9,445 nt of DNA, taken from Flavisolibacter sp. (GTDB lineage: Bacteria > Bacteroidota > Bacteroidia > Chitinophagales > Chitinophagaceae). The notes beneath the pieces are model-generated. The model made no database searches, was not told where the DNA came from, and saw only the letters and a program-made list of their open reading frames with translations. Both the position numbers and the translations under genes were made by a program. Below are positions 2,589 to 7,885 of this stretch, piece by piece. The stretch is from NCBI GenBank assembly GCA_025936195.1, contig JAICTW010000049.1, positions 1 to 9,445 on the forward strand. Reading direction: 5' to 3'. The stretch's first letter is position 1. Every line of letters starts with the position of its first letter.

Positions 2589-4670
2589 ATGCCTTTGCCA
2601 ACTGCTTATTTCTGGAACAAAATTCCTTTTGTTCGATTGCTTGTTGCTTTAATTGCAGGCATTGTTTTGCAATGGCAATTGCAGTTTTCCATTTCAATTT
2701 TGCTTATATCATTCACTATCTGCTCCTCGGCTCTTTTGATCTATTTTTCAATTTCCCTGAAATCAAAATTCAGCTTTGGCTATTTTAATGGCATTGCAAC
2801 CAACCTTTTCATTCTCTTAACCGGAGCCATTTTGGTTTGGCTGCATGATGTTCGGCATAATAAAAACTGGATTGGACATAATTACTCCGACAGCAATTAT
2901 GTAGTGGTAACCATTGAAGAACCATTGGTAGAGAAAATCAATTCATTCAAAGCACTGGCAAGAGTTGAGGGAGTCTATTCCAAAAATGATTTCAAAGAAA
3001 AAGCAGGACAGATCATCTTGTATTTTAAAAAAGATTCTTCTCTTCAACAACTGCATTATGGTTCACAAATCGTTTTCAAAAAGCCACTTCCGGAAATAAA
3101 GAATGCAGGCAATCCGGGCAGCTTTGATTACAAGCAATACAGTTTGTTCCAGGGTATCACACATCAAATCAATCTTTCAGCAAACGAGTTTGAAGTTCTT
3201 CCTTCAGAAAATAAAAATTTCTTTCATCAACTTATTTTCAATTGCAGAAGTTGGGTTGTTAAAACACTTCAACGTTTCATCAAAGGAGAAAAGGAACAGG
3301 GACTTGCAGAAGCCTTGTTGATTGGATACAAAGATGATCTTGACAAAAATCTGGTTCAATCCTATACCAATACCGGTGTTGTTCACATCATTGCTATTTC
3401 CGGAATGCATTTAGCATTGATCTATGCTTTGCTGGTTTTACTCACCAAGCCTATTCGGAGAAAAAAACAATTGAAATGGTTTCGAATTGCTTTGATCTTA
3501 TCTGGACTTTGGCTATTTACTTTATTGGCAGGGGCGCAGGCTTCTGTTGTACGTTCCGCTGTTATGTTTACCTGCATTGCCCTTGGCGAAGTACTTTCCA
3601 AACGAACATCTATTTATAATACACTTGCTTTGTCGGCATTTATTTTATTGGCGTATGATCCTTTCTGGCTTTGGGATGTAGGATTTCAACTGTCGTATGC
3701 TGCAGTATTAAGCATTGTGGTCTTCTATCGTCCCATTTATAATTGGTTTTATATTCCTAACAAATCAATTGATTTTATTTGGAAGACGATGGCTATTTCC
3801 ATTGCTGCGCAAATCTTAACCACACCTGTCAGCCTTTATCATTTTCATCAATTTCCTGTTTTGTTTTTACTGACCAATATTGTTGCGGTTCCGCTTTCCA
3901 GTCTGGTATTGTTTGGAGAAATTGCTGTTTGTGTTTTCGCGATCATCTCACCTCTTGCAAAATTTTTAGGATGGTTCACAGAGTTGCTTATATACTGGAT
4001 GAATTCTTACATTGAAAGAATTGAAATTATTTCCTTTTCTCTTTGGAATGGGTTTTACATCACCATTTTTCAAACCATTTTGTTATCAATTGCCGCTATA
4101 CTGATTTGTTTCTGGCTCGTGGAGAAAAGAAAATGGATGCTATGGTTTTCGCTAAGTGCTGTTTTGATCTTTATTGCTTTACGTTCCCTGTCCTTTTCAG
4201 AAGCATATCGTCAAAAAAAACTGGTTGTTTACAATGTTCCGAAGTTTTCAGCCATTGATTTAATTGACGGCAGAAATTACAATTTCATTGGCGATTCAAC
4301 TTTGTTATTTAATGAGTTCATAAGAAACTTCCACATTCAGCCTTCAAGAGTTTTGCATCGGATAGAACAGAACCAAACCCTTCCTGTTTCTTGCAAAGAG
4401 TTTGAGTTTTATACAAAGCGAATTGTAATCATTGATTCAACGCAATATTTTGTTCCGCTTCAAACAAGGCAACCAATTGATGTTTTAGTTCTTTCTAAAA
4501 GTCCAAAACTGTACATCTCCAATCTCATTAAAACTTTTTTTGTTCAGCAGATTGTCATTGATGGTTCTGTTCCGCGATGGAAAGCGAAGCTTTGGAAAAA
4601 GGACTGCGATTCGCTTCATATTCCTTGTTATGATGTTTCTGAAAAAGGTGCTTTTGTGATGAATCTCTAG
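2589..4670 (+). CDS. comEC: ComEC/Rec2-family competence protein, DNA-uptake channel
   Basis: Residue numbers count from an in-frame TTG at 2559 (703 residues); the ATG at 2589 gives 693 and is preferred because the conserved start WNKIPFVRLLVALIAG follows directly. The N-terminal membrane segments are followed by an OB-like soluble part with the family motif NPGSFDY (185-191). Next comes the competence core: ALLIGYKDDL (252-261), HIIAISGMHLALI (276-288), AGAQASVVRSAVM (324-336) and DVGFQLSYAAVLSI (373-386). ComEC carries single-stranded DNA across the inner membrane during natural transformation. The C-terminal region (about 553-703) starts KLVVYNVPKFSAIDLIDG and occupies the place of the metallo-beta-lactamase domain, but shows no HxHxDH metal motif, so nuclease activity in this domain is unlikely. 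Such a reduced C-terminus appears usual in Bacteroidota ComEC. It follows the MFS gene closely, but no functional link is evident. Confidence 0.93.
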   Translation: MPLPTAYFWNKIPFVRLLVALIAGIVLQWQLQFSISILLISFTICSSALLIYFSISLKSKFSFGYFNGIATNLFILLTGAILVWLHDVRHNKNWIGHNYSDSNYVVVTIEEPLVEKINSFKALARVEGVYSKNDFKEKAGQIILYFKKDSSLQQLHYGSQIVFKKPLPEIKNAGNPGSFDYKQYSLFQGITHQINLSANEFEVLPSENKNFFHQLIFNCRSWVVKTLQRFIKGEKEQGLAEALLIGYKDDLDKNLVQSYTNTGVVHIIAISGMHLALIYALLVLLTKPIRRKKQLKWFRIALILSGLWLFTLLAGAQASVVRSAVMFTCIALGEVLSKRTSIYNTLALSAFILLAYDPFWLWDVGFQLSYAAVLSIVVFYRPIYNWFYIPNKSIDFIWKTMAISIAAQILTTPVSLYHFHQFPVLFLLTNIVAVPLSSLVLFGEIAVCVFAIISPLAKFLGWFTELLIYWMNSYIERIEIISFSLWNGFYITIFQTILLSIAAILICFWLVEKRKWMLWFSLSAVLIFIALRSLSFSEAYRQKKLVVYNVPKFSAIDLIDGRNYNFIGDSTLLFNEFIRNFHIQPSRVLHRIEQNQTLPVSCKEFEFYTKRIVIIDSTQYFVPLQTRQPIDVLVLSKSPKLYISNLIKTFFVQQIVIDGSVPRWKAKLWKKDCDSLHIPCYDVSEKGAFVMNL

Positions 4671-4682
4671 TCGTTACCTTTG
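4654..4682 (+). promoter_or_regulatory. purH promoter, Bacteroidota type
   Basis: TACCTTTG at 4675-4682 matches TAnnTTTG exactly, and a TTG at 4654-4656 precedes it by 18 bases. The predicted transcription start near 4686 gives purH a leader of about 30 bases. The -33 element falls inside the last codons of comEC and the -7 box lies just after its stop, so purH can be expressed independently of comEC. This is the best promoter match in the window. Confidence 0.7.
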
Positions 4683-4715
4683 CGGCTCTTTTGATGCCTG
4701 CCTTAATTTTTTTAC

Positions 4716-6371
4716 ATGAGCAAGAAAATAACATCTGCCCTTATTTCTGTTTTTTACAAAGATGGACTGGAGCCGCTTGTACGCGAACTACACAATCAGG
4801 AAATCACCATTTATTCCACTGGTGGCACGCAAAATTTTATTGAGAACCTTGGAATTGAAGTGGTGCCTGTCGAAGACCTCACTTCCTATCCTTCTATTTT
4901 AGGTGGAAGAGTAAAGACCTTGCATCCTTCCGTATTTGGAGGAATACTGGGAAGAAGAAATCATCCGCAGGATGTTCAGGAAATGAAGGATTTTGAAATT
5001 CCCATTATAGATCTGGTGATTGTTGATCTCTATCCTTTTCAGGAAACGGTTGCTAGTACAACAGATGAAAAAACAATCATTGAAAAAATTGATATCGGCG
5101 GACCATCAATGATCCGTGCCGCAGCAAAGAATTTCAATGATGTTGCTGTGATCGCATCAAAGGATGATTACTTCAAACTCGTGGACCTTTTACAAACACA
5201 AGCCGGCAGTTTAACGTTAGATCAAAAAAGGAATTTTGCTGCAAAAGCATTTCAGATCGTTGCTGATTACGATATTGCTATCAACAATTATTTCAACAAA
5301 GAAAAACCATTAACAGTTATTGGTGCAGGGCAGGAAACGGTTTTGCGCTATGGAGAAAATCCGCATCAAAAAGCTGTTTTCTATGGCAACCTGAATGAGT
5401 GTTTTGATCAACTTCATGGAAAGGAAATTTCATACAACAATTTAGTTGACATTGATGCCGCCATTGAATTGATAAAGGAGTTCAGCCCCCACCAAACCTC
5501 CTCCAACGGAGGAGGCTTAGCCAAAACACAGCCCAGGCTTAATGAAGTTGCAAGCAATTTATCAGCCTCCTCGAAAAGCGAGGTACGTGAGCAGATGGCT
5601 TCACCCGTTGGGGGAAGTCGGATGGGGGCCGGACCTTGCACCTTCGCTATCATCAAGCACACGAATGTTTGTGGTATTGCCATAAGAGAAGAAGTTGCTG
5701 ATGCCTGGAAGCATGCACTGGCAGGAGATCCAGAAAGTGCATTCGGCGGCGTATTGATTTGCAATGCAAAAATTGATGAAGCAACTGCGCAAGCCATTAA
5801 TGAAATCTTTTTTGAAGTATTGATCGCTCCTTCTTTTGACGATAAAGCTTTGCAGATTTTGAAATCAAGGAAGAACAGAATTCTATTGCAATTAAAAAAT
5901 ACCAACACTACTTCAGACATTTACAAGAATGCCGTGAACGGAACTTTAGAACAGGGAAAAGACGCCGGCAATTTTGAAAAGTGGGAAGAAGTTGGTGGCA
6001 GAGCAAGCAATGAAAGAGAGAAAGAAGATTTAGTATTTGCGAACCTGGTTTGCAAACATTTAAAGTCAAACGCCATCGCTTTGATAAAGAATAAACAATT
6101 AGTTGGTAAAGGTTGCGGACAAACCAGTCGCGTGGATGCAACCAGACAGGCCATTGAAAAAGCAAAGCAGTTTAATTTTGATTTAACCGGCGCGGTAATG
6201 GCAAGCGACGCTTTCTTTCCCTTCAATGATTCAGTGCAAATTGCTCATCAGGCTGGTGTTACTGCATTCATACAGCCCGGCGGTTCTATAAGAGATAAAG
6301 ACAGCATTGATTATTGTGTTGCTAATAATTTGGCAATGGTAATGACCGGCATTCGTCATTTCAGGCACTGA
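4716..6371 (+). CDS. purH: Bifunctional AICAR formyltransferase / IMP cyclohydrolase PurH, with an in-frame insertion
   Basis: PurH formylates AICAR using 10-formyl-tetrahydrofolate and closes the ring to IMP, the last two steps of purine synthesis, in the cytoplasm. The N-terminal cyclohydrolase (MGS-like) domain shows STGGT (34-38), GGRVKTLHP (63-71) and GGPSMIRAAAKN (128-139). The formyltransferase domain shows RYGENPHQ (211-218), catalytic Lys314-His315 in IIKHTNVCG, DPESAFGG (338-345), GQTSRVDA (468-475) and ASDAFFPF (496-503), and ends in GIRHFRH. The 551 residues exceed the roughly 505-510 usual in this phylum. Residues about 257-306 are hydrophilic, G/S/P-rich and unlike the family, and coincide with a hairpin-rich DNA insertion. 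In the family this spot is the loop between the helix ending here in LIKEF and the strand leading into the catalytic Lys-His. All catalytic motifs remain, so the enzyme is probably active. The ATG at 4716 lies about 30 bases from the predicted transcription start. Confidence 0.96.
   Translation: MSKKITSALISVFYKDGLEPLVRELHNQEITIYSTGGTQNFIENLGIEVVPVEDLTSYPSILGGRVKTLHPSVFGGILGRRNHPQDVQEMKDFEIPIIDLVIVDLYPFQETVASTTDEKTIIEKIDIGGPSMIRAAAKNFNDVAVIASKDDYFKLVDLLQTQAGSLTLDQKRNFAAKAFQIVADYDIAINNYFNKEKPLTVIGAGQETVLRYGENPHQKAVFYGNLNECFDQLHGKEISYNNLVDIDAAIELIKEFSPHQTSSNGGGLAKTQPRLNEVASNLSASSKSEVREQMASPVGGSRMGAGPCTFAIIKHTNVCGIAIREEVADAWKHALAGDPESAFGGVLICNAKIDEATAQAINEIFFEVLIAPSFDDKALQILKSRKNRILLQLKNTNTTSDIYKNAVNGTLEQGKDAGNFEKWEEVGGRASNEREKEDLVFANLVCKHLKSNAIALIKNKQLVGKGCGQTSRVDATRQAIEKAKQFNFDLTGAVMASDAFFPFNDSVQIAHQAGVTAFIQPGGSIRDKDSIDYCVANNLAMVMTGIRHFRH
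5484..5633. repeat. Palindromic element inserted in frame within purH
   Basis: This segment of about 150 bp (50 codons) has inverted ends. The 25 bases from 5485 match the reverse complement of the right end (ending at 5629) at about 20 positions, both starting GCCCCCA and both containing CCAACGG. Each end folds on itself: the left has CCTCCTCC and GGAGGAGG around the loop AAC, and the right has TTCACCC and GGGGGAA around GTT. A third hairpin, CCTCG/CGAGG, lies at 5568-5582. My hand count gives about 57% G+C against about 34% in the 80 bases upstream. It encodes no transposase. The limits are approximate; no target duplication is obvious. It resembles REP/MITE-like or Rickettsia palindromic elements in behaviour, not in recognised sequence. 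Confidence 0.75.
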
Positions 6372-6527: not shown

Positions 6528-6591
6528 ATTCACGATTCACGATTCACGATTCACGATTGACGATTGACGTTTCACGATTTCACGATTGACG
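6528..6591. repeat. Nine-unit 7-bp tandem array overlapping a gene's 3' end
   Basis: Nine consecutive units of the form ATTSACG (S is C or G) fill 64 bases. Units 1-4 (6528-6555) are identical ATTCACG, units 5 and 6 and the last are ATTGACG, the seventh begins TTT, and the eighth has an extra T (8 bp). The array lies in the convergent gap between purH and the deacetylase-like gene and runs 20 bases into the latter. It covers its stop codon (6572-6574) and last five to six codons. Identical neighbouring units suggest recent expansion by replication slippage. No complementary arm is visible nearby, unlike the two arrays around mreB. Confidence 0.85.
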
Positions 6592-7885
6592 AAATAAACT
6601 TCCTGTACACCTCTCTCCATCCGGCAAATTCTTCATCAGTTCCTAAAAAGCTGTTGTGCCAAATGGTGATCAATGTTCCGTTCACCGACTTCACTACATT
6701 ATAGTACTGCATTAATTCCTGCAAGGCAGCATCAGCCAGAAGATTTTGTTCATAATAAGCGTTGGCATCCATAAAACAAAAGGGATGGATCAACAATTTT
6801 GTTGGTTCCTCATTTTTTAAATCGTACCAATAAAAAGCAGTAGCAATAGAAGCTCTGAAGCCATTAATGCTTCCGTAACCCATAGAGTAATCGTTTGTAA
6901 TGCCAAGTGCCAGTAATTTTCTGTAAGTAGATGGCAATTCAAAACGGATGAAATGCTGACGTGAACAAGTTACGGTTTGATTAGTGATTTGTTCAAGCGT
7001 GGCTTTTTCCTGGGTAAGTAGAGAAGGGGTATCGCCGCTTACCCATGATGGGTGCAATCCAACCCGGTATTTTGATGCGATGGATTGAATCAATTGTTGA
7101 AACTCCATATTGTTCACATCAATATTCTTATCGTACCTGCCTCTTTCCTTGGCTACCAAAAAAAAATAAACAGGTGAAAGATCAAACTCATCATGCAAAT
7201 CATCCATCCATTGATAGGCATCAAAAGGATCCTGACTCTTTCCTCTGATCACCCTTAGCCGATAAACCATTTTTCGAAACTTACCGCTGAAGAAAGACTT
7301 TAACAGTCCCCCGAAATTTCTTTTGAAGCCTTTGTTGTAAAAGCTCCAGGCCATATCAATATCATAAGTGGGGAGAAATGAAAATTGAGAATTGCCGGTT
7401 GCGAATTGAGCATTTTTTTCTATCAATAACTTTCTAAAATCTTCCAGCCAAATATTAATTAAAGGAAGGGGAAGAAAACCTTCTTTGAAAGCCACTGAAT
7501 TTTCATGAGCATATCTTCCATACCTATCCTTTTTGTGCGGAAGATATTCTTCGTATCGCGTCAGCAAATAAAAAACAGCAGCAAACAAATCAAAACCAAA
7601 CTCACCTTCTGCTTTGAAGAAAGCCTTATAGCCGTCTTTTTCAAAACATTCTATTTTCACCTGCCGCACTGAAGATTCAAACAATAAAGCATGCGGATGA
7701 ATAAAAATTTCTTTAGGATCAATGCGATGATAGTTGTAATTGATCTTACAGGTTTCCGGTGCACTTACAAATCGCTCTTCATCGCTGATGAGTTTGAATG
7801 GAAGGCCAAAATATCGGGAGAGAAATTCGGTTACGTATTGAAGTCGTGGTGTTACACTATGGCTAAAAACCAACACTGAACTCAT
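6572..7885 (-). CDS. Polysaccharide deacetylase family protein
   Basis: This is a 437-residue protein. The first 165 or so residues look like the N-terminal domain common in Bacteroidota deacetylase-like proteins (probably DUF7033, from memory). A NodB-like part follows: TYDID (173-177) with Asp175 and Asp177 as candidate metal or catalytic residues, GLHPSW with His278, SRQHFIR (308-314), LLIHPF with His367, and a late IWHNSF with His410. Members remove acyl groups from cell-surface or secreted polysaccharides; the substrate here is unknown. No signal peptide is evident, so it may act in the cytoplasm on a precursor. The motifs are diverged from classical NodB (TFDDG, HxxxH), so activity is inferred. 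The ATG overlaps the lutB stop by four bases (ATGA), implying translational coupling. The final residues (about 432-437) and the stop are supplied by the 7-bp array, so the natural C-terminus may once have been different. Confidence 0.8.
   Translation of the reverse strand: MSSVLVFSHSVTPRLQYVTEFLSRYFGLPFKLISDEERFVSAPETCKINYNYHRIDPKEIFIHPHALLFESSVRQVKIECFEKDGYKAFFKAEGEFGFDLFAAVFYLLTRYEEYLPHKKDRYGRYAHENSVAFKEGFLPLPLINIWLEDFRKLLIEKNAQFATGNSQFSFLPTYDIDMAWSFYNKGFKRNFGGLLKSFFSGKFRKMVYRLRVIRGKSQDPFDAYQWMDDLHDEFDLSPVYFFLVAKERGRYDKNIDVNNMEFQQLIQSIASKYRVGLHPSWVSGDTPSLLTQEKATLEQITNQTVTCSRQHFIRFELPSTYRKLLALGITNDYSMGYGSINGFRASIATAFYWYDLKNEEPTKLLIHPFCFMDANAYYEQNLLADAALQELMQYYNVVKSVNGTLITIWHNSFLGTDEEFAGWREVYRKFISSIVKS

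Follow-up and report, generated by a model that had tools for sequence, protein, structure and literature searches.

In-frame palindromic elements of Rickettsia, triplex motifs and DUF559 as a presumed nuclease (labeled by Pfam as a protein of unknown function) are known separately and, to our knowledge, translated palindromic elements are known from Rickettsiales only. In homing endonuclease elements and inteins, a nuclease gene has a constant position within conserved genes, and such a position may be occupied, nuclease-less or empty; a homing cycle predicts nuclease-bearing, nuclease-less and empty states at one site. The REP sequences associated with RAYT (Y1) transposases are short hairpin repeats that are dispersed and come singly or in inverted pairs. 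The Rickettsia palindromic elements (RPE), in the passage of PMC10969869 devoted to them, are ∼150 bp long, palindromic, often in frame in unrelated conserved genes and predicted to be translated, and the same passage mentions neither triplex-motif ends nor nuclease-bearing forms. The TM_ECO motif of Escherichia coli, in the sections of Holder et al. (2015, PMC4666352) that describe it, combines a hairpin with a purine third arm according to the class II code, occurs singly or in inverted pairs (five cases), is patchily distributed between strains and forms a triplex in vitro, although a stable triplex was not found in vivo.

The locus compared here with these systems is the purH gene of a Flavisolibacter sp., contained in a window of 9,445 bp (the whole stretch of DNA that was analysed). 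Its relevant features are as follows.

4716..6371, + strand: purH, encoding the bifunctional AICAR formyltransferase/IMP cyclohydrolase, the host of the insert (ORF of 551 aa; NCBIfam PRK00881, 616.7 bits)
5484..5633, + strand: in-frame insert of 50 codons, residues 257-306 (75 of the 120 PurHs listed lack it; residue 258 is where the HMM alignment breaks)
5485..5518, - strand: left terminal unit, outward-pointing, hairpin CCTCCTCC/GGAGGAGG plus mirror arm GGTGGGGG (match of 23.5 bits to covariance model R1; triplex-type motif at 5486-5515)
5519..5595, + strand: linker, with a part ACACAG..CAGGCTTAATGAAG (by-eye likeness to linkers in genomes G085 and G332)
5596..5629, + strand: right terminal unit, degenerate, outward-pointing, hairpin CTTCACCC/GGGGGAAG plus mirror arm GATGGGGG (triplex-type motif at 5599-5628)
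5655..5660, + strand: codons of K314 and H315 (alignment of insert-bearing PurHs)

A first-pass annotation of this DNA had claimed ∼50 extra in-frame residues ending eight before Lys314, and the correspondence is exact: residues 257-306 are encoded by 5484-5633, the 551-aa frame runs through the insert free of stops, and K314 and H315, which we take to be the catalytic Lys-His of PurH, lie 8 and 9 residues past its end and are invariant in all 27 aligned insert-bearing PurHs. The claimed excess over the family length is also about the size of the insert, with full-length insert-free relatives mostly of 502 aa compared with 551, and the best NCBIfam HMM stretch stops at residue 258. The G+C content of the insert, 56.7% compared with 40.0% in the rest of purH, makes the claimed contrast real, but the flanks are richer than the 34% that had been given (37.3% in the 150 bp upstream and 46.0% in the 150 bp downstream). 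The AlphaFold2 model of PurH (27 sequences, mean pLDDT 70.7), for which the listed PDB matches start with PurH/ATIC, fits the proposed helix-strand loop as the insertion point, the insert being modelled as disordered (pLDDT below 50 at residues 258-305) between helix 240-256 and strand 308-314. The window also contains a tandem array of ∼9 copies of the 7-bp unit ATTCACG (6528-6592), in the space that separates purH from the following gene.

The inverted, self-folding ends that had been noticed are recovered as two inverted units of 34 nt each, and the RNA fold of 5478-5640 (-69.2 kcal/mol, z -4.6) is equalled by none of 200 shuffles. Both ends conform to the class II triplex pattern, that is, a pyrimidine stem, a purine stem and a third purine arm mirroring the latter. 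Hairpins with an 8-nt stem and a mirror purine arm are found only at 5486-5515 (-) and 5599-5628 (+) in the 9,445 bp, and in none of 30 Markov-randomised windows; the right unit has no match to R1 at E≤0.05. With 8-nt stems of other sequence, the ends depart from the TM_ECO consensus and its 9-nt stems, and at 145-150 bp, the insert has the palindromic-repeat size of ∼150 bp. The ACACAG..CAGGCTTAATGAAG part of the linker resembles, by eye, linkers of purH inserts and of other full copies in G085 and G332.

The insert is absent from 75 of the 120 listed PurHs, a sample that includes the window's own protein, as the alignment proposed in the first-pass annotation was meant to reveal; 42 of the others have a long insert and three a short one, all in one place. 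On a PurH tree built without the insert columns, in which many branches are weakly supported, the long form is found at 34 of 136 tips, which requires at least 18 state changes, compared with a mean of 30.6 (24-34) under shuffled labels, so that the insert, judged from these sequences, is partly inherited and has been repeatedly gained or lost. Together with the poor conservation of its protein sequence among PurH relatives, these changes differ from the outcome named beforehand as refuting, a conserved loop protein with no DNA palindrome. In Chitinophagaceae (394 genomes, 373 with a match), the matches of G332, G085 and G342, among those listed, run through the insert, and at none of 80 PurH loci of named relatives does the match extend far enough to hold an insert of 50 aa; in 11 named-relative genomes, the window element has weak DNA matches only (best E 0.04). 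The purH states in the PurHs compared here are nuclease-less or empty, and no nuclease-bearing element was seen among them. In two genomes (loci L119 and L125), by eye, differing short palindromes are present at the purH site, so that other repeat families may use this site.

Copies of the element recur in related genomes. When the 138-bp purH element of G085 is searched against its own genome, 35 places match at E≤1 (counting the element itself), with a best non-self match of E 5e-23 and three others nearly full length. The R1 units at E≤1 number 87 in G085, 37 in G332 and 33 in G342, where 150 of ∼970-1,600 candidates were scored per genome and weak matches are included. Under stricter filters (E≤1e-4), R1 units are found in 21 of 117 family genomes, namely 41 in G113, 26 in G085, 18 in G070, 16 in G097, 12 in G023 and 1-7 in each of the other 16. 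The repeat family is patchy and amplified across the genomes of the family. Many units in related Chitinophagaceae genomes are intergenic. Of 155 units counted, 97 lie outside any long frame, and 58 (a few of these being weak model matches) have a frame of 60 codons or more to each side of them; the count selected copies across which the reading frame stays open and is kept to the left and right. The search for further copies that had been suggested, run in relatives, thus found them both between and within genes, at the 35 places in G085 and in frame in conserved genes, and the recurrence in related Chitinophagaceae genomes supports the idea of a mobile palindromic repeat that would have turned into protein sequence.

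Of the hosts of in-frame copies, 26 were scanned with NCBIfam, which left four proteins unmatched at E≤1e-20. The hosts identified include RlmD, LeuRS, pyruvate dehydrogenase E1 (with a tandem double insert), AspRS, adenine deaminase, CarB, IcmF, menaquinone decarboxylase, MtaB, 4-hydroxyproline epimerase, CinA, the CCA-adding enzyme, AroA, UvrA (two genomes), NadE, IleRS and TrpA, so that in-frame residence in unrelated protein genes, as in RPE, is found in the related genomes. HMM stretches end or begin at the insert in RlmD, an alpha/beta hydrolase, LeuRS, pyruvate dehydrogenase E1 and the CCA enzyme, and in a few scanned hosts, the unit is outside the matched domain. Comparison by eye indicates that G085 shares host sites with G342 (UvrA and CarB), G023 (RlmD, pyruvate dehydrogenase E1 and the decarboxylase) and G070 (AroA). 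Units on the coding strand use one frame in 20 of 25 cases, and those on the other strand are divided among the three frames (19, 7 and 7 of 33). In a pyruvate dehydrogenase E1-like gene of G085 (locus L231, contig C263, 2185-2452), two tandem short elements make up ∼90 codons in frame.

The order within the terminal units is AAG, pyrimidine stem, loop, purine stem, TTT, arm and C, and the arm mirrors the purine stem, with T allowed opposite A-T. In the first set, which gave 17 distinct stem/arm pairs, this rule holds at 115 of 122 positions; swapping arms between equal stems lowers the number to 94.3 ± 4.3 (0 of 20,000 permutations as good). The second set, 60 stretches from eight genomes absent from the first (including G023, already encountered in the DUF559 comparison), yielded 14 pairs with 79 of 98 positions fitting, compared with 64.3 ± 3.3 permuted (0 of 20,000), two of these pairs, which were kept in, looking like opposite-strand readings of a hairpin; the nine unseen pairs alone are weaker, with 44 of 63 positions fitting and 72 of 20,000 permutations as good. 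Units without the TTT spacer and final C were excluded, namely 7 of 37 distinct units in the first set and, among 29 in the second, six lacking TTT along with further ones that lacked the C at the end. With all 26 pairs combined, the intrastrand-triplex code is followed at 159 of 185 positions, compared with 129.2 ± 5.0 permuted (0 of 20,000), figures that are not exact probabilities because related copies are not independent. Mirror repeats are not made by template copying, so that selection on a structure of the ends is likely. The mirror rule is the class II intrastrand triplex code described for the E. coli motif in the corresponding sections of PMC4666352.

Some relatives of the insert contain a nuclease-like gene. 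In the 1,218-codon LeuRS frame of G085, codons ∼321-480 are a DUF559 domain (PF04480) between two triplex-type ends; the G085 purH element is 94% identical to this LeuRS element over the last 50 bp, and by BLAST, the ends alone match between short and LeuRS DUF559 elements, the linker being untraced to the nuclease gene. The same LeuRS frame (locus L226, contig C152, 1258-4911) has three inserts, at ∼321-480 (DUF559), ∼714-748 and ∼1093-1138 (a short element). PF04480 was detected in eight of nine genomes searched, and in G085, short elements far outnumber the nuclease-bearing ones. PF04480 is in frame in LeuRS of G085, G023, G227, G024 and G018, in MetH (at one site in G085, G023 and G332 and at a second in G332), in CinA and IcmF of G023 and in a peptidase-like frame of G015, with host names taken from visual inspection and from alignments with the LeuRS query. 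The LeuRS insert, used in turn as the query of a protein search, retrieved 177 proteins, and the 120 listed, with hosts counted by Pfam domains and examples rescanned, comprise 95 LeuRS, 14 acetyl-CoA synthetases, five IleRS, two proteins of the methylmalonyl-CoA mutase type, two MetH, one RecG and one capsule reductase (P0186), the last with DUF559 at two sites. Capsule reductases of the Bacteroidaceae type with DUF559 are common in the protein collection searched, with at least 119 relatives of P0186 (P0242-P0360), all containing PF04480.

Across Bacteroidia, DUF559 is present in 83 of 149 genomes and, among 150 matches listed, 47 are in frames of at least 400 aa. In the PDB, DUF559 of a LeuRS has a match to 3hrl, an entry whose name describes an endonuclease-like protein (E 8e-17), and PADLOC gave one weak match (E 7e-4). 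The AlphaFold2 model of a DUF559-bearing acetyl-CoA synthetase is poor (mean pLDDT 44.8; ∼65-90 in the DUF559 part), and its 50 listed PDB matches are all acetyl-CoA synthetases. A Pfam scan of nine DUF559-bearing hosts revealed no intein family or splicing domain. An end motif lies within 200 bp at nine of 17 Bacteroidota DUF559 loci, the other eight having no recognised end motif, and triplex motifs at these 17 loci number 14 in 12.2 kb near DUF559 compared with 7 in 43.3 kb far from it.

The same host site can be found in different states. The CinA site, compared by eye like the next two, holds a short element in G085, DUF559 in G023 and DUF559 between two R1 units in G102; the adenine deaminase site, a short element in G085 and DUF559 between two R1 units in G063; the IcmF site, a short element in G085 and DUF559 in Mucilaginibacter sp. 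UYNi724. The changing states at these three sites are those that a homing cycle predicts. An alignment of 13 acetyl-CoA synthetases places DUF559 in loop 1 of nine proteins, of which five have a short loop 2 and four (P0217, P0218, P0221 and P0227) a nuclease-less, element-like stretch in loop 2; the remaining four proteins carry DUF559 in loop 2 and have an empty loop 1. A nuclease at a fixed site with nuclease-less and empty alleles is therefore found in CinA, adenine deaminase, IcmF and acetyl-CoA synthetase.

The proximity of DUF559 and triplex-type motifs extends beyond Bacteroidota. The ycjD gene of E. coli K-12 is annotated as DUF559, and the sole exact TM_ECO match in its 20-kb stretch is 168 bp away. 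When ycjD is combined with 14 DUF559 loci taken, from 33 matches, out of plasmid records of Pseudomonadota, Cyanobacteriota and Deinococcota, a triplex-type motif is found within 500 bp at 10 of the 15 loci and on both sides at five of these 10; the five loci beyond the 10 have no recognised end motif. Random anchors in the same stretches give a mean of 2.7 loci and a maximum of 8, and 10 was reached in none of 20,000 trials. Motifs outside Bacteroidota number 24 in 19.8 kb near DUF559 compared with 18 in 116.6 kb far from it, 13 of the far ones forming one Photobacterium array, and their strands vary by side (left, seven - and four +; right, five + and six -). In a Photobacterium sp. GJ3 plasmid (L452, ∼4370-4919), a triplex-type array with ∼148 bp spacing lies beside DUF559, and 13 more motifs are farther away. 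In a Sphingomonas parapaucimobilis plasmid (L442, 3866-4449), a DUF559 gene is flanked on each side by a pair of triplex-type motifs, and this stretch also holds carA, carB, dnaG and rpoD.

The purH insert is, therefore, probably a nuclease-less member of a family of homing-like, triplex-ended, DUF559-linked elements, and would be translated unspliced. Comparison of sequences supplies the basis: a repeat family whose copies reside in frame within many conserved genes, arms that covary with their stems, DUF559 located between such ends, both states at single host sites in different genomes and, outside Bacteroidota, DUF559 genes close to triplex motifs. Counting against this reading are the lack of any nuclease-bearing element among the PurHs compared, the BLAST match to the LeuRS DUF559 element in the ends but not in the linker, the end motifs missing at five of the 15 outside loci and eight of the 17 Bacteroidota loci, and the 97 of 155 units outside long frames. 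From the sequence comparisons we infer cleavage, the mode of copying, mobility, translation and the status of the short copies, which would be relics or elements moving in trans. In the scenario proposed, the DUF559 protein would cut a site in a conserved gene and the element would be copied in during repair, the hairpin/triplex ends probably mattering as single strands. Within genes, a copy would survive only in a permissive loop and only if its frame is open and matches that of the host; loss of the nuclease would follow, leaving a short palindromic insert that is still translated, as in purH of the window, and that would subsequently drift or disappear. The right end of the window copy is worn. 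We also lean, with a good deal more reserve, to the broader proposal that triplex repeats across bacteria, including the E. coli TM motifs, are ends or footprints of one DUF559-powered mobile class, whose Bacteroidota members would be in frame, translated and unspliced in essential enzymes and would cycle through three states, the purH insert being the nuclease-less one.

The other mobile source that can be envisaged, a Rickettsia-type palindromic MITE that encodes no nuclease, depends for its movement on an unrelated enzyme (for example, a RAYT (Y1) transposase) and shares only the palindrome with the DUF559 elements, is unlikely. It would account for the excess of short over nuclease-bearing elements in G085, Y1 transposases are present in G085, G332 and G342 alike, and, according to the part of PMC6006769 on this subject, one Bacteroidetes subclass of these genes has structures at its flanks that are repeated elsewhere in the genome. 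Against it, none of the 16 Y1 loci in these three genomes has a terminal unit nearby, one 11-bit match being all that was obtained, and the short and DUF559 elements are joined by the 94% identity of their last 50 bp and by coinciding host sites. RAYT as the mover was rejected on the count of Y1 loci, and the elements differ from REP/RAYT in this respect, with DUF559 lying between the units instead. The end motifs could also be chiefly regulatory or terminator structures, near DUF559 by chance and occasionally inside genes, given that many units are intergenic and that they are hairpins; this is very improbable, considering that mid-gene, in-frame residence would be left unexplained and that the relevant section of PMC4666352 cites an earlier study for the lack of promoter or terminator activity of the E. 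coli motif.

The host enzymes are conserved and mostly essential, and the ends fold strongly as RNA, both of which would suit removal of the short and DUF559 inserts from RNA or protein, or skipping by the ribosome, such that the enzyme remains unextended. This possibility is rather improbable: it would not require the open, in-frame state of the counted copies (a state for which the count was selected), and against it stand the single frame of most coding-strand units, the lack of an intein domain in the nine nuclease-bearing hosts scanned with Pfam and the lack of any Rfam match within the window. Least credible of all is an ordinary lineage-specific loop with chance palindromes, which has in its favor the variable length of the PurH site but fails to account for the copies elsewhere in relatives, the at least 18 state changes on the PurH tree and the end motifs that occur nowhere else in the window or in the 30 random ones.

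With the DUF559-linked element as the preferred reading, the comparison with RPE made in the first-pass annotation holds for the behavior (translated, in frame, in conserved genes) but is incomplete: the mirror-arm, triplex-type ends and the nuclease-bearing relatives at the same host sites set these elements apart from the RPE as described, although the purH insert alone would be a variant of the RPE kind. TM_ECO is reported in those sections of PMC4666352 to be always intergenic with no mobility gene nearby, whereas here the units are also intragenic, in frame and beside DUF559. Unlike inteins, the nine hosts contain no splicing domain, the insert would remain in the protein and the nuclease is DUF559. 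No description of these Bacteroidota elements, or of DUF559 inserted in host genes, was found in the open-access PMC literature, nor was the union of in-frame palindromes, triplex motifs and DUF559, so that the element class is rated as new.

If this interpretation is correct, translated palindromic elements, triplex repeats and DUF559 would unite as one system; for bacterial triplex repeats, no mobility gene had been found, according to the sections of PMC4666352 on these repeats. It would also be a mobile element whose persistence depends on toleration of its protein form, rather than on splicing itself out, with conserved metabolic enzymes as its niche. This would further suggest that the extra domains in some enzymes of Bacteroidota (LeuRS, MetH, acetyl-CoA synthetase and a capsule reductase) are parasites.
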